Assembly: GCF_017751145.1 (NCBI RefSeq)
Contig: NZ_CP046640.1
Coordinates: 1,034,137 to 1,098,136, forward strand
Length of the DNA: 64,000 bases
Reading direction: 5' to 3'
Source of the DNA: Iocasia fonsfrigidae
Lineage (GTDB): Bacteria; Bacillota; Halanaerobiia; Halanaerobiales; DTU029
Shown: positions 27,623 through 38,503 of the stretch, one piece after another
Numbering within the stretch: position 1 is the first letter of the stretch
How the letters are laid out: each line of letters begins with the position of its first letter
Notes under the pieces: model-generated
The model's database searches: none
What the model saw: only the letters and a program-made list of their open reading frames with translations
What the model was told of the DNA's origin: nothing
Made by a program: the position numbers and the translations under genes

Positions 27623-27651
27623 TTGACAAGTGCCTATGAGAGTGGTAAAAT
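27623..27651 (+). promoter_or_regulatory. Promoter of the T-box/cstA transcript
   Basis: TTGACA (27623-27628) and TAAAAT (27646-27651) with 17-bp spacing, a near-consensus vegetative promoter. Transcription would start near 27658, at the beginning of the T-box leader. Confidence 0.8.
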
Positions 27652-27657
27652 TGTCGG

Positions 27658-27957
27658 TAACAGAAGATAAGAAAAAATGCTGGGAACAGGAAATGTAGTT
27701 CTGGCAGATCCATTACAGAGAGTCATCGCTGCTGGAAGATGATATGGATTCCAGGGTTTACCTCACCTGTGAGCAGTCGGCTGAAAGGCAGCTGCCGATT
27801 AAGTGTGACCGGGTTTCTACCGTTAAAAAGAAGTGTATTTAACAGACTTTGTTAAGTTTGTTTGATATATTAAAGGGGTTGCCTGGCAGCAACAAGAGTG
27901 GTAACGCGGAATATAAACTTCGTCTCTTATTTAAAATAAGGGGCGGAGTTTTTTTAA
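27658..27957 (+). promoter_or_regulatory. T-box leader, leucine (CUC) specifier, controlling cstA
   Basis: About 300 nt of structured leader. Stem I runs from about 27678 to 27777 and carries CAGAGAG and GCTGGAAG in its distal half. Pairing CAGG/CCTG below and GTAGTTCTGG/CCAGGGTTTAC above leaves an internal loop with AAAT on one side and CTCA on the other. The specifier is thus CTC (27762-27764) followed by the usual purine, giving leucine. The T-box sequence at 27891-27909 reads AACAAGAGTGGTAACGCGG; its UGGU (27899-27902) pairs with a tRNA ending ACCA. A terminator (27915-27957) with a G-C/G-U stem and seven Ts follows. Uncharged tRNA-Leu should prevent termination and switch on cstA. Confidence 0.88.
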
Positions 27958-28085
27958 TGGATAACAAAATAAGCAGGATTAGTGAAATTTTAATTTTATA
28001 GTACTATAAATCACAGATTAATTTTCTTGACTTCTGTTAAAATATAGTTGTTTTATTATTATAATAATTTTAGGAGGTATTGGGA

Positions 28086-29780
28086 ATGAACGGATTAGTA
28101 ATGATAGTTCTGGCAGTTATTGTGTTAGGAGGGGCTTATCTATTTTACGGTAGATGGCTGGCTAAAACCTGGGGTATTGATCCTAAAGCAAAAACCCCTG
28201 CCTATGAGATGGAGGATGGTGTGGACTATGTGCCGGCCAAGACCAATGTAGTCTTTGGTCATCAGTTTGCATCAATTGCTGGTGCCGGCCCGATTAATGG
28301 GCCGATAATAGCAGCGATGTTTGGCTGGGTTCCTGTCCTTTTATGGGTTTTAATTGGTGGTGTTTTCTTTGGTGCGGTTCAGGATTTTGCTGCGATGTAT
28401 GCTTCAGTTAAAAATAAGGGTCGCAGTGTAGGTTATATTATTGAACTGTATATCGGTAAGACTGGCAAGAGGCTTTTTCTTCTTTTTGTATGGCTGTTTT
28501 CGATCCTGGTAATAGCAGCCTTTGCAGATATTGTTGCCAGTACTTTTAATGGTTTTGCAGCAGATGGAAGTTTGAATCCAGCAAATGCTTCTACTGCAAC
28601 AACATCTATTTTATTTATTGTCTTAGCAGTAGCCCTGGGTATGTTTATTCGTTATAAAAATCCATCTGCTGCAGTTACTAATATTGTTGGTATTATAGTT
28701 TTGATTGTAGCAATTGTTTTAGGACTGGTTTTTCCTATGTATGTTTCCCAGACATCCTGGCTTTATTTTGTTTTTGCGTATATATTTGTAGCCTCTGTTA
28801 CACCGGTATGGGCCTTACTTCAACCAAGGGATTATTTGAATTCTTTTTTGTTAGTGGCGATGATGATCTGTGCTTTTATAGGGGTAATTGCTGCCAGACC
28901 AGCAATGAATCTCCCGGCATTTTCAGGTTTTACTGTCAAGGGGCAAATGATGTTTCCAATGTTGTTTGTCACGATTGCCTGTGGGGCAGTTTCCGGTTTT
29001 CACTCCCTGGTTTCATCAGGCACAAGCTCCAAGCAGATTCAAAATGAAAAGAATATGCTGCCGGTTTCTTTTGGAGCTATGCTCTTAGAGTCCCTGCTTG
29101 CTGTGATTGCTTTAATTACTGTAGGGGCTCTGGCAGTAAATGGACAGCTGCCTAATGCTGCTCCACCTGTTATTTTTGCAGAAGCCATTGCTGGATTTCT
29201 AGGTGTATTAGGTTTTTCTAGAATTACTATCTTTACAATTATTACACTGGCCATCTCTGCTTTTGCCTTAACATCATTGGATTCTGTAGCCAGGGTCGGT
29301 CGTCTTTCTCTACAGGAATTATTTACTGATGACGGGATAGATCCAGAAAACACTTCTACTCTGCAAAAGATATTGACAAATAAGTTTTTTACAACAGCTC
29401 TTACTTTATTTTTCTCCTATTTATTGGCTATAGTAGGTTATAAAAACATCTGGCCTTTGTTTGGTTCAGCAAATCAGCTTCTTTCTGCCCTTGGTTTAAT
29501 TGCTGCAGCAGTATTTTTGAAAAAGACCAAAAGGAAAGGATTTATGCTGTGGGCCCCAATGACTATCATGCTTGCGGTTACTTTTACGGCCCTAGGTCAA
29601 ACCATCTTTAAGATTTTAAATAAATTATTTTTCACTAATAATTTTGTAATTGTTAGTGATGGTTTACAGCTGGTATTTGCAATATTACTTGTCGGTCTTG
29701 GTTTTCTGGTTGCTGTTTCTGGCTTTAAAAAGATTTTTAAGGAAGAAAGTCTAACTGAGGCTGTTTCAGCAGCAGAATAA
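28086..29780 (+). CDS. cstA: CstA family peptide/amino-acid transporter
   Basis: A 564-residue carbon-starvation protein A family transporter with about sixteen membrane helices. The conserved N-terminal block is present: FGHQFASIAGAGPINGPI then FGWVPVLLWVLIGGVFFGAVQDF, and later SGFHSLVSSGTSSKQI. Characterised relatives import peptides or pyruvate. The ATG at 28086, 7 nt after AGGAGGT, is preferred over a TTG at 28080. It is preceded by a leucine-type T-box leader, so expression should rise when charged tRNA-Leu is scarce. That points to uptake of leucine, branched-chain amino acids or peptides (inference). Confidence 0.92.
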   Translation: MNGLVMIVLAVIVLGGAYLFYGRWLAKTWGIDPKAKTPAYEMEDGVDYVPAKTNVVFGHQFASIAGAGPINGPIIAAMFGWVPVLLWVLIGGVFFGAVQDFAAMYASVKNKGRSVGYIIELYIGKTGKRLFLLFVWLFSILVIAAFADIVASTFNGFAADGSLNPANASTATTSILFIVLAVALGMFIRYKNPSAAVTNIVGIIVLIVAIVLGLVFPMYVSQTSWLYFVFAYIFVASVTPVWALLQPRDYLNSFLLVAMMICAFIGVIAARPAMNLPAFSGFTVKGQMMFPMLFVTIACGAVSGFHSLVSSGTSSKQIQNEKNMLPVSFGAMLLESLLAVIALITVGALAVNGQLPNAAPPVIFAEAIAGFLGVLGFSRITIFTIITLAISAFALTSLDSVARVGRLSLQELFTDDGIDPENTSTLQKILTNKFFTTALTLFFSYLLAIVGYKNIWPLFGSANQLLSALGLIAAAVFLKKTKRKGFMLWAPMTIMLAVTFTALGQTIFKILNKLFFTNNFVIVSDGLQLVFAILLVGLGFLVAVSGFKKIFKEESLTEAVSAAE

Positions 29781-30124: not shown

Positions 30125-30787
30125 ATGAGTTTTATGTATGAAGAAACACCATCTTATAATAATTTGAAAGAGAAGGCTTACTATATTATAAAAGATAAAA
30201 TAATAAATTGTGAGATACCACCAGGGGCTTTTCTGGAAGAGGAGAAACTAAAGGAAGAAATCGGTGCAAGCCGGACTCCAATAAGAGAAGCATTAAATAA
30301 ATTAGAGCAGGAAGACTTAATTAACATATTACCTAAACGAGGTATTTTTGTTACAGATATTAACATGAAGGATATTGAAAATATTTTTCAGATAAGATTA
30401 CTTATGGAACCCTATATTATGAAAATTTCATATAAAAATTTAATTGAGGATGAGCTATTAAAATATAAAGAACTATTTAAAGAATATTTTACCGATCCTA
30501 AGGATGATTTATATTATACGGAGCTAGATGCCAGGTTCCATTATTTTCTTGTTAAAGCATCTGATAATAAGTATTTAATTAATATGATGCAGCAGATATT
30601 TATCCAGAATCACAGGATTAGAGTAATTTCTGCTAAAAAGCCAGATAGAATAGAAAATAGTATAAATGAGCACCTGCGCATAATTGATTTTTTATTAGAA
30701 GGGGAAATAGATGAAGCTGTTTCCGAAATGGAAGAACATATAAGACAATCTAGAGAAGTTGCCTTAAGACTGGGAATTAATATTTAG
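30125..30787 (+). CDS. GntR family regulator, FCD subfamily
   Basis: A 220-residue regulator. The winged helix-turn-helix lies at residues 12-78 (IPPGAFLEEEKLKEEIGASR, then TPIREALNKLEQEDLI and PKRGIFVTDI). The C-terminal all-helical FCD domain has LDARFHYFLVKASDN and NEHLRIIDFLLEGEIDEA, with the Asp and His residues that bind a metal in this family. It precedes a dehydrogenase and TRAP transporter cluster on the same strand and probably senses its substrate. Upstream is a palindrome next to its own promoter. Confidence 0.9.
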   Translation: MSFMYEETPSYNNLKEKAYYIIKDKIINCEIPPGAFLEEEKLKEEIGASRTPIREALNKLEQEDLINILPKRGIFVTDINMKDIENIFQIRLLMEPYIMKISYKNLIEDELLKYKELFKEYFTDPKDDLYYTELDARFHYFLVKASDNKYLINMMQQIFIQNHRIRVISAKKPDRIENSINEHLRIIDFLLEGEIDEAVSEMEEHIRQSREVALRLGINI

Positions 30788-30819
30788 TTTTAAAAGTTTA
30801 GAATAAAGAGGTGGGAAGA

Positions 30820-31830
30820 TTGAAAGTAGTGTCAATTGGAAAACCAGAAAAGATAGAATTAATAGATAAAAAAAAGCCTGAACTTAAATCCGGGGAAGCG
30901 CTTTTAAAAATTAAATATTGTGGTATTTGTGGTTCAGATATTTCTACTTATACAGGTAACCAGCCTTTTGCCAGTTATCCAAGAATTCCAGGCCATGAAT
31001 TTTCTGCAGAGATAGTTGGGATAGAAGAAAATGATCTTGGATTAAAAGAGGGAATGATCGTAACAGCCAATCCATATTTTAACTGTGGAGGATGTTATCC
31101 CTGTGGTAAGGGTAAAGTGAATTGCTGTGAACATAATGAAACAATGGGTGTTCAAAGAGATGGCTCTTTTCAGGAATATATAACTATGCCAATTGAAAGA
31201 ATTGTAGCGGGAAAAGGCCTTTCTGCAAAAACACTGGCACTTATTGAACCCTTTTCAATCGGATATCATGCTATAAAGCGTGGAAAGGTAAAAGAAAATG
31301 ATAAGGTTTTAGTAATTGGCTCAGGTCCAATTGGAATTTTTGCTATGTTATCAGCAAAACTGGTGGGGGCTGAGGTAACTATTGCTGACAAATTAGAAAA
31401 CAGACTAGAATTGGCTCAAGAAATGGGAGTAGATAATATTATTAATGTTGATAAAGTAGATTTATCAGTAGAAGTAAATAGATTAACAAATGAACATGGA
31501 ATGGATGTTTGTGTTGAAGCAGTTGGTCTGGCAAGTACTTTTTTACAGTGTATTGAAAATAGCTGTTTTGGTGGAAAAATAATTCTGGTAGGTAATGGGA
31601 AAACAGAAGTAACATTTAATCATTCAATCCTATTAAAAAAAGAACTGGATGTTTATGGGTCACGTAACAGTCTGCATGATTTTAAGCCATTAATTGATAC
31701 TGTGCTTAAAAATAACTTGGATATTGATAAAATTATTACTCATGTTTTTGATAAAGAAAATGTATTACAGGCATTTAAAGAATTACGTAATAATAATGGA
31801 AATATGGCCAAAGTACAGGTTAAGTTTTAG
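30820..31830 (+). CDS. Zinc-dependent alcohol/polyol dehydrogenase (MDR family), first copy
   Basis: A 336-residue medium-chain dehydrogenase of the sorbitol/threonine dehydrogenase branch. The catalytic zinc site is CGICGSD (about residue 35) with GHEF. The structural zinc site is CGGCYPCGKGKVNCC. The NAD-binding motif is VIGSGPIGIFA (about 165). TTG 30820, 5-6 nt after AAAGAGGTGG, is the better start; an in-frame GTG at 30811 sits inside that ribosome site. It lies 32 bp after the GntR gene. It likely oxidises a polyol or sugar acid brought in by the TRAP system. Confidence 0.88.
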   Translation: MKVVSIGKPEKIELIDKKKPELKSGEALLKIKYCGICGSDISTYTGNQPFASYPRIPGHEFSAEIVGIEENDLGLKEGMIVTANPYFNCGGCYPCGKGKVNCCEHNETMGVQRDGSFQEYITMPIERIVAGKGLSAKTLALIEPFSIGYHAIKRGKVKENDKVLVIGSGPIGIFAMLSAKLVGAEVTIADKLENRLELAQEMGVDNIINVDKVDLSVEVNRLTNEHGMDVCVEAVGLASTFLQCIENSCFGGKIILVGNGKTEVTFNHSILLKKELDVYGSRNSLHDFKPLIDTVLKNNLDIDKIITHVFDKENVLQAFKELRNNNGNMAKVQVKF

Positions 31831-31966
31831 CGTAACATTATAGTTATTAATAGCTATGCTAATTCTATGTATAGTTATTAGAAGATAAATTTTTTTTAAA
31901 AAGGGAGGGATCAAAATATAAGCTAAAAGTACTTTAAAGCCAAAAATTAAAGGGAGTGAATAATTA

Positions 31967-32950
31967 ATGAAAAGGAAATCTTTAATCTTAACAGTAAGTT
32001 TATTTTTGTTATTAACATTTTCATTTGCTATCAATGCAGCTGCACAGAAGGTTAATTTTAAGTTTGGGCATATATATGCACCAGACCATCCTTATTCAAT
32101 TGGTGCTAGAGAATTAGCAAAAAGAGTTAGTGAAAAAACAGATGGTCAATTTATAATTAATGTATTCCCTGCTGGTCAGTTGGGAAGTGAAAAAGATCTG
32201 CTTGATTCTGTTTATTCAGGTGCAATTGATATGGCTTATGTAGGACCAGGTGAATTAGGAAAAAGATATTCTCCGGTGTCAGTTTTTGATGCACCCTTTA
32301 TTTTTGAAGGTTATGAACACGGTCAAAAGGTAGTAAATGGAGAATTAGGAAAAGAAATTCTAGCAGATATGCAGGAAGAAACAGGTATCAAGGCTTTAGT
32401 TAGTGTATATTATGGAGCAAGGAAATTAACAATGAATTCTCCAGTCGAAACACCTGCAGATTTAAACGGAAAGAAAGTACGGGCTCCTGATATGCCTTTG
32501 CCACTAGCTACAGTAAGAGGTATGGGAGCTAAGCCTACTCCAATGGCTTTTTCAGAAGTATATTTAGCTTTACAGCAAGGTGTAGTAGATGGTCAGGAAA
32601 ATCCTATTCCTACTATCTATAGTCAAAAATTTTATGAAGTTCAGGATTATATTATTATGACTAATCATACTGTTTGCTTTACACCAATGATTATTGCTGA
32701 ATCAACCTTTAATGATTTGCCAGCTGAATATCAAAGGATTTTACAGGAAACTGCTGAAGAGGTAATGAATATAGTAAATGAAACTACTTTAAAATATGAA
32801 GAAGAAAAACTTACAGAAATGAAAGAGGCAGGAATTAAGGTTATTGAACCAGATCTAGAAGCATTTAAAGAATCTTCTAAAGAAATAGTAAAAGAGTTTG
32901 AAGAGCAATGGGGTCAAGGGATTTACGAAAAACTACAGAATGCAAAATAA
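31967..32950 (+). CDS. TRAP transporter substrate-binding protein (DctP family)
   Basis: A 327-residue periplasmic-type binding protein with a signal peptide (residues 1-26, ending SFAINAAAQ). It has the DctP pattern: FKFGHIYAPDHPYSIGA, FPAGQLGSEKDLLDSV and the ligand-binding region RAPDMPLPLA, then QQGVVDGQENPIPTI with the Arg/Asn residues that hold a carboxylate. It captures an organic or sugar acid outside the cell. Its permeases lie downstream, after a second dehydrogenase. AAAGGGAGTGAATAAT precedes the ATG. Confidence 0.92.
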   Translation: MKRKSLILTVSLFLLLTFSFAINAAAQKVNFKFGHIYAPDHPYSIGARELAKRVSEKTDGQFIINVFPAGQLGSEKDLLDSVYSGAIDMAYVGPGELGKRYSPVSVFDAPFIFEGYEHGQKVVNGELGKEILADMQEETGIKALVSVYYGARKLTMNSPVETPADLNGKKVRAPDMPLPLATVRGMGAKPTPMAFSEVYLALQQGVVDGQENPIPTIYSQKFYEVQDYIIMTNHTVCFTPMIIAESTFNDLPAEYQRILQETAEEVMNIVNETTLKYEEEKLTEMKEAGIKVIEPDLEAFKESSKEIVKEFEEQWGQGIYEKLQNAK

Positions 32951-32979
32951 ATTTGTATATTGATTAAGCTAGAATAAGT

Positions 32980-33013
32980 AAAATGAAGGGGGGGAATTCC
33001 CCCTTTCATTTTC
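32980..33013 (+). terminator. Hairpin after dctP, probable attenuator
   Basis: AAATGAA plus a G-run pairs with a C-run plus TTTCATTT, with AATT in the loop, then TTCTTAAAT. The U-tract is weak. A hairpin directly after the binding-protein gene fits the usual higher level of binding protein than permease. Confidence 0.6.
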
Positions 33014-33070
33014 TTAAATAATTTACTAAATATAAAATAGTTTGAAATATTAAATTGAGAAAGGACAAAT

Positions 33071-33178
33071 ATGAAGAACAGTAAAATATCAAAGATGAAT
33101 TTTTATCGAGCTTTGTCTAAAATAAGTAAACCGCTAGCTGGGGTTTTGAATTTAAGAAAGAATTTCTGCAGGAGGTAA
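33071..33178 (+). CDS. Small 35-residue ORF before the second dehydrogenase
   Basis: ATG at 33071 follows GAGAAAGGACAAAT, and the frame runs for 35 codons (basic, no membrane helix; begins MKNSKISKMNFYRALSK). Its last codons and stop, AGG AGG TAA, form the ribosome-binding site of the next gene, whose ATG is 5 nt further on. This suits translational coupling. It may instead be a remnant; I recognise no family. Confidence 0.35.
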   Translation: MKNSKISKMNFYRALSKISKPLAGVLNLRKNFCRR

Positions 33179-33182
33179 AGTA

Positions 33183-34223
33183 ATGACTAATAGTTTAATG
33201 AAAGCTTTGTTCCTAAAAAAACCCTATAAATTAGAACTAAAAAATACTAACATTCCTGTCTTATCACAGGGGGAAGTCTTAATAAAAGTTAATGCTGTTG
33301 CTTTATGTGGTACTGATATCCATGCTTATCATGGGAAACAAGGTTTATTTGAATATCCTCGTATTATAGGACATGAAATTTCCGGGGAAATTGTTGAAAT
33401 GAATGCTAAACAAAAAAAATTAAGGATTGGTGACAGGGTAGCAATTATACCCTACATAAATTGTGGACACTGTATTTCCTGTAATAAAGAAATTTATGGA
33501 GCATGTGAAAACCTTAAGGTAGTTGGAGTCCATCAAGCGGGTGGATTAGCAGAATTTATTAAAATCCCGGTAGATAACTTAGTAAAATTGCCACAAAATA
33601 TTGATAATTTAAACGGAGCGTTAGTTGAACCACTTGCTATTAGTACTCATGCGGTTCGCAAAGCAAATCCAAAATCAGATGAAAATATTTTGATTGTTGG
33701 GATGGGACCAATAGGTTTAGGCGCAGCTGAAATTGCAAAAACATTTGGGGCCAATGTTATTCTAGCTGATCTTAGTGAAGAAAGAAGAGATTTCGTTAGT
33801 AAGAGATTTGATTATAAAAATATATTAAACCCCTTAGCTGTAGATTATAGAAAACAGCTTGCTGAACTTACTGACGGTAATATGCCTGATACGATTATAG
33901 ATACTACCGGAAGTAACAAGTCAATGGAATCATGTTTTAAATATTTAAGTTATGGTGGAAAAGTAGTTTATGTTGGTATCTATAATGGTGATTTAGTTAT
34001 TGATGATATTGAATTTCATAAAAGGCAGACTCGACTTTTTGGCAGTAGAGCAGCCCAAAAAACTGACTTTGAATATGTAATTGGATGTATTGGTAAAGGA
34101 TTAGTTAAACCAGAAAAATTTATAACTGATAAATTGGAATTTGATCAAAATATTGTAAAAAATATTAATTTAGTCATGGATAAAGGGCTAAGTGCTTTTA
34201 AAACATTAATAATTTTCAAATAG
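33183..34223 (+). CDS. Zinc-dependent alcohol/polyol dehydrogenase (MDR family), second copy
   Basis: A 346-residue paralogue of the dehydrogenase at 30.8 kb. It has the catalytic zinc motif LCGTDIHAYHGK (about residue 40), GHEISGEI, the structural zinc site CGHCISCNKEIYGAC and the dinucleotide-binding VGMGPIGLGAAEIAK. It lies between the binding-protein and permease genes, which ties it to the same substrate. Two dehydrogenases suggest two oxidation steps or two related substrates. AGGAGGT precedes the ATG. Confidence 0.88.
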   Translation: MTNSLMKALFLKKPYKLELKNTNIPVLSQGEVLIKVNAVALCGTDIHAYHGKQGLFEYPRIIGHEISGEIVEMNAKQKKLRIGDRVAIIPYINCGHCISCNKEIYGACENLKVVGVHQAGGLAEFIKIPVDNLVKLPQNIDNLNGALVEPLAISTHAVRKANPKSDENILIVGMGPIGLGAAEIAKTFGANVILADLSEERRDFVSKRFDYKNILNPLAVDYRKQLAELTDGNMPDTIIDTTGSNKSMESCFKYLSYGGKVVYVGIYNGDLVIDDIEFHKRQTRLFGSRAAQKTDFEYVIGCIGKGLVKPEKFITDKLEFDQNIVKNINLVMDKGLSAFKTLIIFK

Positions 34224-34242
34224 AATTATGAGGTGAGATATT

Positions 34243-34701
34243 ATGAAATTACTGGAGAAATTCGAGAACTTTATAGTTTTAGTGTTTTTAGGAATGATGT
34301 TTGTAATTTTACTTTTTCAAATTATATTAAGATATTTTTTTAATCATCCACTTATTTGGAGTGAGGAATTAGCCAGATATTTATTTGTTTGGGTAGCTTT
34401 TATTGGTGCCAGTTTTGGTGTTAGAGATTCTTCACACATTAAATTAACAGTTATTTTCAATTTTTTCTCCAAGAAATTAAGAACAGTAATAAGTGCTAGT
34501 ACAAATATAGTTTGTATTTTATTTTTTCTATACTTAATCCCTGACAGTATAAGACTGGCTGCTGACCAGTTTTCTGTTGCTTCATCTGCTATTGGCTTAC
34601 CAATGGGATTGGTTTTTTTAGCAGTTCCAGTTGGATTTGTTCTAATGACAATCCGATTGTTAATTGATACCATTGGATTATTTCGTAAAACAACTCAGTA
34701 A
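34243..34701 (+). CDS. TRAP transporter small permease (DctQ family)
   Basis: A 152-residue membrane protein with four helices. The DctQ signature is present: ILRYFFNHPLIWSEELARYL in one stretch (about residues 27-46), then FVWVAFIGASFGVRDSSHI. It bridges the binding protein and the large permease. It begins 19 bp after the dehydrogenase behind GAGGTGAGAT. Confidence 0.92.
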   Translation: MKLLEKFENFIVLVFLGMMFVILLFQIILRYFFNHPLIWSEELARYLFVWVAFIGASFGVRDSSHIKLTVIFNFFSKKLRTVISASTNIVCILFFLYLIPDSIRLAADQFSVASSAIGLPMGLVFLAVPVGFVLMTIRLLIDTIGLFRKTTQ

Positions 34702-34728
34702 TTTCTATTATTTAGGAGGTAATAAATA

Positions 34729-36000
34729 ATGACTTTGTTATTAATAATCTTAGTTTCATTATTAATGTTAGGAGTTCCTGTATCATTTGCACTTATAATT
34801 AGCTCAGTTGCTTATTTGATACAGCATGATATCTCATTATTTATAGCAATTCAAAGAATGACAATGAGTATTGGTGATTCTTTTACTTTAATTTCTGTAC
34901 CATTTTTTATTTTAGCTGGAGTAATAATGAATACGGGTGGTATAACTGAAAAGATTTTCAATTTTGCTGATAAATTAGTTGGTCATATTACTGGTGGACT
35001 TGGTCATGCAAATATTTTGGCCAGTATTATATTTTCCGGTATGTCTGGTACTGCAATAGCAGATGCAGGAGGTTTGGGAGCTATTGAATTAAAGGCTATG
35101 AAAGACGCAGGTTATGATGAAGATTTTAGTTTAGCCATTACAGGTGCTTCTTCTATAATTGGTCCGATTATTCCTCCAAGTGTACCCGCAGTTTTATATG
35201 CAGTTCTAGCAGGGGCTTCTGTCGGCAAATTATTTATTGCTGGTATAGTACCCGGGATTATCATGGGTTTAATTATGGCAGTGTTTGTTTATTTTAAAAG
35301 TAAGAATGAAGATTATCCTATTCACAACCGGGCTCCATTAAAAGAAATGTTTGCCTCATTCAAAGAATCATTTTGGGCATTATTAACACCAGTTATTATA
35401 ATTGGTGGTCTATTAGGAGGTATCTTTACTCCTACAGAAGCGGCTATTATTGCTGTGGCATATTCATTAGTACTTGGTTTTTGTTATAACAATGTTACCA
35501 TAGAAAGAATCCCTGAACTGTTAAAAGAAACAGCCAGCCATACTGTTAGTGTAATGTTAATTGTGGCAGGTGCTTCTATTTTTGGCTGGATTTTGACAAT
35601 TGAACAGGTTCCACAGTTGATTACAAACTTTTTTCTAACAAATATATCAAGTCAAATTGCAGCTATATTATTAATTAATTTATTATTATTAATTGTAGGG
35701 ACATTTATGGAAACAATTGCTGCAATTACAATTTTGACACCAATACTTGTACCACTGGCAACAACTTTTGGATTTGATTTAACCCATTTTGGAATAATAA
35801 TGATCTTAAATCTGATGATTGGCTTATTAACTCCTCCTTTAGGAATGGTTTTATATGTACTTTCATCGGTTTCTAAAGTTCCATTCGAGAAAATTGTTAA
35901 AGCCTCTGCACCTTATGTTATAGTATTAGGACTTACTTTATTGTTATTTACCTTTGTTCCTCAAATAGTATTATTTTTACCTAATTTATTATCAATGTAA
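34729..36000 (+). CDS. TRAP transporter large permease (DctM family)
   Basis: A 423-residue sodium-coupled channel subunit with about twelve helices. Motifs include GVPVSFALIISS near the start, SVPFFILAGVIMNTGG, FSGMSGTAIADAGGLGAIE, SSIIGPIIPPSVPAVLYAV in the transport core, and GLLTPPLGMVLYVLSSV near the end. AGGAGGTAATAA precedes the ATG. It is the last gene of the cluster, with a strong hairpin after it. Confidence 0.94.
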   Translation: MTLLLIILVSLLMLGVPVSFALIISSVAYLIQHDISLFIAIQRMTMSIGDSFTLISVPFFILAGVIMNTGGITEKIFNFADKLVGHITGGLGHANILASIIFSGMSGTAIADAGGLGAIELKAMKDAGYDEDFSLAITGASSIIGPIIPPSVPAVLYAVLAGASVGKLFIAGIVPGIIMGLIMAVFVYFKSKNEDYPIHNRAPLKEMFASFKESFWALLTPVIIIGGLLGGIFTPTEAAIIAVAYSLVLGFCYNNVTIERIPELLKETASHTVSVMLIVAGASIFGWILTIEQVPQLITNFFLTNISSQIAAILLINLLLLIVGTFMETIAAITILTPILVPLATTFGFDLTHFGIIMILNLMIGLLTPPLGMVLYVLSSVSKVPFEKIVKASAPYVIVLGLTLLLFTFVPQIVLFLPNLLSM

Positions 36001-38415: not shown

Positions 38416-38503
38416 TGGTGCCGAGGGCGGGATTTGAACCCGCACGGTCTATTAGACCACTAGCCCCTCAAGCTAGCGCGTCTGCCAGTTCCGCCACCTC
38501 GGC
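38416..38503 (-). tRNA. tRNA-Leu (anticodon GAG)
   Basis: An 88-nt class II tRNA with encoded CCA. The acceptor GCCGAGG pairs with CCTCGGC, the discriminator base is A, and there is a long variable arm. The anticodon stem CTAGC/GCTAG encloses TTGAGGG, giving anticodon GAG for codon CUC. This is the same codon read in the T-box specifier ahead of cstA, and the ACCA end suits that T-box's UGGU. Confidence 0.95.

Follow-up and report, generated by a model that had tools for sequence, protein, structure and literature searches.

A leucine-type T-box ahead of a CstA-family gene in Iocasia fonsfrigidae suggests a transporter for branched-chain amino acids

Annotations of CstA proteins commonly name carbon starvation, peptide transport or pyruvate transport, and T-boxes sense uncharged tRNA. 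A T-box placed ahead of a cstA gene in Iocasia fonsfrigidae raises the question of which amino acid controls this transporter and what the transporter carries. The locus lies in a stretch of 64,000 nucleotides of contig NZ_CP046640.1, referred to here as the window, and all positions below are numbered from its first letter. The reading that we favour, and hold to be reasonably probable, is that a tRNA-Leu T-box controls cstA and that CstA imports branched-chain amino acids.

Architecture of the T-box leader

An earlier note on this DNA described a complete leader with promoter, Stem I, T-box sequence and terminator ahead of cstA, and the covariance-model search against Rfam bore this out. Positions 27673-27930 matched the T-box family RF00230 with 106 bits (E 2.1e-22, gathering cut-off 93) over positions 1-219 of the 219 in the model. 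The features of the locus are as follows.

27623-27651, forward strand: promoter-like TTGACA-N17-TAAAAT with a TG extension ahead of the second hexamer (extended -10), 11 of 12 consensus bases
27673-27930, forward strand: T-box leader (Stem I, Stem II/III region, antiterminator), end-to-end match to RF00230
27762-27764, forward strand: leucine specifier CUC, with A as the next base; placed by the Rfam alignment, the same column in an alignment of 41 cstA leaders, and a genome-calibrated register
27895-27927, forward strand: antiterminator with the T-box sequence UGGU at 27899-27902; placed by the Rfam alignment and pairing conservation in 28 leaders
27915-27955, forward strand: intrinsic terminator, a 17-pair stem (27915-27951) and a T run; -18.9 kcal/mol, z -7.0 against shuffles
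28086-29780, forward strand: cstA, CstA-family (PF02554) secondary transporter of 564 amino acids; 499 bits against a gathering score of 27
38416-38503, reverse strand: tRNA-Leu(GAG), discriminator A, the predicted effector; reads CUC, 3' end ...GGCACCA

The position of the promoter upstream of the T-box is common to the window and two related loci, L020 and L145. The terminator stem overlaps the 3' arm of the antiterminator (27919-27927), and the two folds are thus mutually exclusive, as is characteristic of a T-box. Across the 28 leaders, 93% of cells preserved the antiterminator pairs, a share that fell to 38-55% once the partner was slid along; the pairs that vary were too few for covariation to exceed that of shuffles, though the pairing itself was kept. 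Judged from its sequence, the window leader is a complete, real and ordinary class I transcription-terminating T-box. Its extent had been given as 27623-28085; the leader within these limits stood, but the boundary did not, as the leader proper occupies 27673-27957 and the next ∼130 bases (27958-28085) form an untranslated spacer before cstA. This spacer carries ∼50 more A+T-rich bases than those of L020 and L145.

Leucine as the predicted signal

The Rfam alignment gives UUUAC-CUC-A-CC for the 3' strand of the specifier loop, which places in the specifier column the same CTC followed by A that had been read from the Stem I loop by the earlier note. The whole-model match returned a leucine codon at this position and no non-leucine codon. 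The register was calibrated on the T-boxes of the same genome (n = 15), with the specifiers of the lower-scoring ones assigned by visual inspection. Read in the same register, leuS and leuA carry CUC, ileS AUC, valS GUC, metG AUG, thrS ACC, serS UCC, proB CCC, and pheS, pheA and aroG UUC. The T-box sequence varies along with the tRNA in this genome, with UGGA at thrS (discriminator U), UGGC at serS (discriminator G) and UGGU at cstA. The latter is complementary to the ACCA end of tRNA-Leu(GAG) and calls for discriminator A, in agreement with the earlier proposal. The leucine register is secure because the other T-boxes of the genome read the expected residues and the discriminator agrees.

Control of cstA by leucine shortage is well supported by these features, and induction by uncharged tRNA-Leu, as had been predicted, would be expected from the Rfam alignment, the register calibration, the discriminator match and the clade-wide Ile/Leu/Val codons presented below. 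When leucine is short, uncharged tRNA-Leu(GAG) would contact the leader twice, its anticodon pairing with CUC in Stem I and its ACCA end pairing with the antiterminator UGGU. This would keep the terminator at 27915-27951 from forming, and cstA would be made as a single-gene transcript. When leucine is plentiful, transcription would end before cstA. The CstA protein would import branched-chain amino acids by an ion-coupled mechanism of the APC fold. Substrate and leucine response are what we infer here from the leader, specifier, terminator and gene seen in the sequence and from the branched-chain specificity seen across the clade.

Among the T-boxes detected in the genome, cstA is the sole transporter target, and leuA and ilvB are also T-box-controlled. 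A weak T-box match (61.7 bits) with a short Stem I was observed elsewhere in the genome (L015, 1501-1675, minus strand), ahead of an aminotransferase-like gene.

Specifiers in the leaders of related cstA genes

A survey of T-boxes upstream of cstA in relatives, a check that the earlier note had put forward, covered the 80 closest CstA homologues in a set of genomes with one per species; most of these homologues belong to Clostridia, some to Spirochaetota and one to Elusimicrobiota. T-boxes were found at about half of the homologues, and all readable specifiers were branched-chain. The core GTGGTANCRCG was located 90-300 bases upstream of cstA in 40 of the 80, L076 adding one more with a variant core, and for five of the 80 the upstream sequence was too short to judge. 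A cmscan of most of the remaining homologues at the gathering score, a threshold that misses weak cases such as L076, gave no T-box at cstA. The carriers are many, from the gut as well as from the environment.

The specifier column in the alignment of 41 leaders held ATC in 32 (L095 among them), CTC in seven (the window included) and GTC in one, with L024 lacking Stem I; L145, L147 and L076 added three more ATC. All 43 readable specifiers were therefore branched-chain (35 AUC for Ile, seven CUC for Leu and one GUC for Val), and every leader with the standard motif keeps UGGU. On the protein tree, at least six specifier changes were counted, always within Ile/Leu/Val. As a rough estimate, such a restriction would be unlikely without selection, because, of the seven single-base changes of AUC that are non-synonymous, just two yield a codon for Leu or Val. 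In L024, the antiterminator and terminator are present about 120-420 bases before cstA and the specifier part of Stem I is missing, either by deletion or by assembly error.

Among the CstA homologues at or below about 50% identity to that of the window, the T-box motif was absent upstream, except at L147. The latter is a distant CstA (∼50% identity) preceded by an AUC T-box, which may have been gained separately or may go back to an old association. In L053, whose protein adjoins that of the T-box-bearing L049 on the tree, the whole leader is missing between promoter and gene, while L029, L061 and L094 retain the terminator and have lost the T-box leader. These loci indicate repeated recent loss of the switch among close relatives. 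The link between T-box and cstA is not obligatory, because the leader was lost or cut down in L053, L029, L094 and L061.

The CstA protein and its likely substrate

PF02554 was the only Pfam match of the window CstA, and the BrnQ/LIVCS family PF05525 was not matched. Against NF011590, the equivalog model of the E. coli-type pyruvate/proton symporter CstA, the protein scored 259 bits, far below the cut-off of 1188, and it is 31-32% identical to E. coli CstA and BtsT. Its clade has GAGP..GP, PVW.L..PRDY and ACGAVSGFH, the core motifs, in common with both E. coli proteins and differs from both at 89 clade-conserved positions. One of these is N71, a valine in both E. coli proteins, at the predicted break of helix 1.

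A sequence search of solved structures with the window CstA gave no relative. The predicted model (pLDDT 85) showed an APC/LeuT fold; its matches to solved transporters had Z of 23-26 and spanned about 380-400 residues. Fold matches were NKCC1, BasC, KimA, ApcT and AdiC, and also Nramp; the amino-acid transporters among the best matches were BasC, SLC7A10, ApcT, AdiC and LAT1 (Z 23-25.5). The fold also serves substrates other than amino acids, namely chloride, potassium and metals, and it does not alone name the substrate, because NKCC1, KimA and Nramp match alongside the amino-acid transporters.

Branched-chain amino acid import by the window CstA is likely, and it is the most likely function because, in many Clostridia, the leaders of the clade carry specifiers for Ile, Leu or Val. 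The conserved sensor of these tRNAs ahead of one CstA clade provides a concrete substrate hypothesis, which extends to gut bacteria such as Blautia.

In Firmicutes, the branched-chain carrier under T-box control is usually BrnQ. A search for PF05525 found no match anywhere in the genome of I. fonsfrigidae, and BrnQ was also absent from 39 of the 43 genomes with a T-box cstA. It was present in four of these 43 as compared to seven of 27 genomes without the T-box, a difference that is not counted as significant, ancestry being uncontrolled. The absence of BrnQ leaves room for a branched-chain role of CstA and is suggestive only, since it is confounded by ancestry and incomplete genomes.

Alternative explanations

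The main rival to branched-chain amino acid import, and a live one, is that the T-box works as described and CstA takes up pyruvate or branched-chain 2-oxo acids as precursors for Leu, Ile and Val. The characterised members of the family, E. coli CstA and BtsT, are narrow, pyruvate-specific importers (PMC7730263; see also PMC5847655). The motifs of the substrate region are conserved between the E. coli proteins and the clade, and the T-box-controlled leuA and ilvB of the genome would fit a supply of precursors. It is nevertheless hard to see why an importer of pyruvate should in most cases be tied to isoleucine alone, when pyruvate serves many other purposes and alanine would make a closer signal, and the 89 clade-conserved differences, including N71, separate the clade from both pyruvate importers. 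We regard this explanation as unlikely, but as one to be taken seriously.

Import of peptides, with the T-box reporting a general amino acid shortage by way of leucine, is improbable. Peptide-related phenotypes of cstA mutants have been described in E. coli, Campylobacter and Salmonella (reviewed in PMC7730263), but the transport assays on E. coli CstA favour pyruvate (PMC7730263), and none of the 43 readable specifiers names an amino acid other than Ile, Leu or Val. The earlier note had considered an importer of leucine, branched-chain amino acids or peptides. The leucine or branched-chain part of that claim is the best reading of the 43 specifiers, whereas the peptide part is disfavoured, since control by Ile, Leu and Val alone is not what one would expect of a peptide importer.

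A further explanation, which we consider more doubtful still, is that the T-box is a leftover, with transcription of cstA starting at a second promoter 3' of the terminator. Between terminator and start, the window has the extra A+T-rich bases noted above relative to L020 and L145, and a promoter-like TTAAAA-17-TATAAT is found at 28037-28065; a T-box ahead of cstA1 in Bacillus methanolicus was also held to be a leftover by its authors (PMC4342826). Transcription from the site at 28037-28065 would, however, start at the ribosome-binding site, ∼15 bases before the ATG, and promoter-like matches are frequent in this A+T-rich DNA (8 found, 2.2 expected). The leader is moreover complete, the association of T-box and cstA is conserved across many genera, and a transcript break after the leader is the product of T-box termination.

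A specifier in another register is highly improbable. In the +1 register every leader shows a serine codon (UCA in the window), but UGGU calls for discriminator A, whereas the discriminator of serine tRNA is G and serS in this genome carries UGGC. In the -1 register, which would give proline (CCU) in the window, the leaders name seven different residues. Both readings were rejected, the other T-boxes of the genome fixing the CUC reading in either case.

Comparison with known systems

The window leader resembles the Leu-type class I T-boxes of RF00230, such as the ilv-leu and leuS leaders, in its full Rfam architecture, CUC, UGGU and antiterminator/terminator pair, but it controls a CstA-family transporter instead of a synthetase or a biosynthetic operon. 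T-boxes ahead of branched-chain amino acid transporters of the LIVCS (BrnQ), APC (YbvW) and NSS families are known (Wels et al., 2008; PMC2494555). These share with the window a branched-chain T-box before a secondary transporter; however, they belong to other protein families, and BrnQ is absent from this genome. CstA is unmentioned in the main text of that study and of a 2013 regulon survey. The E. coli symporters CstA and BtsT share the PF02554 family and core motifs with the window protein, but at 31-32% identity, and are under carbon/CRP/CsrA or BtsSR control without a T-box.

The closest precedent is the T-box of cstA1 in B. methanolicus MGA3, which was listed without an amino acid and judged a leftover, with transcription breaking between start site and gene (PMC4342826). 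It likewise lies ahead of a cstA gene, but no amino acid was assigned and its regulation was doubted, whereas the window leader yields a codon and its association with cstA is conserved within a clade. It is possible that the break reported there reflects T-box termination in unstarved cells. If branched-chain control of the CstA clade is true, the B. methanolicus T-box would be recast as probably functional. Among the papers searched, none beyond this one linked a T-box to CstA, and mention in other T-box surveys or a listing in TBDB or RegPrecise is possible. The RNA itself is an ordinary T-box, and the clade-wide branched-chain regulon assignment for cstA appears to be new.

Origin of the cassette and genomic context

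Within the order of I. fonsfrigidae (38 genomes), no other CstA exceeded about 47% identity to that of the window, one short fragment apart. The sister group consists of Anaerosolibacter (L020, 80% identity) and a second genome of that class (L145, 76%), with 99% tree support; their leaders are 65-70% identical to the window leader, share its layout and carry AUC. The T-box-cstA cassette was probably acquired together from a clostridial donor, because the other genomes of the order lack the gene and the sister group lies outside it. The window specifier probably switched from Ile to Leu, a direction suggested because the leaders of the nearest relatives carry Ile specifiers, and it appears to have been retuned around the time of gene transfer. 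The GC content is 39.6% in cstA as compared to 34.3% in the window. In a broader reading, for which we see an even balance, a clade of the CstA family would be an unrecognised transporter of branched-chain amino acids (or branched-chain 2-oxo acids), moved between bacterial classes as a T-box-cstA cassette with the single specifier codon retuned among Ile, Leu and Val.

In most loci cstA stands alone, and its neighbours are not conserved among relatives; operon context was rejected as a clue to the substrate for this reason. Next to cstA in the window (30125-36000) are a GntR regulator, two zinc alcohol-dehydrogenase-like genes and a TRAP transporter, which look like an operon of the sugar-acid type, separate from cstA.
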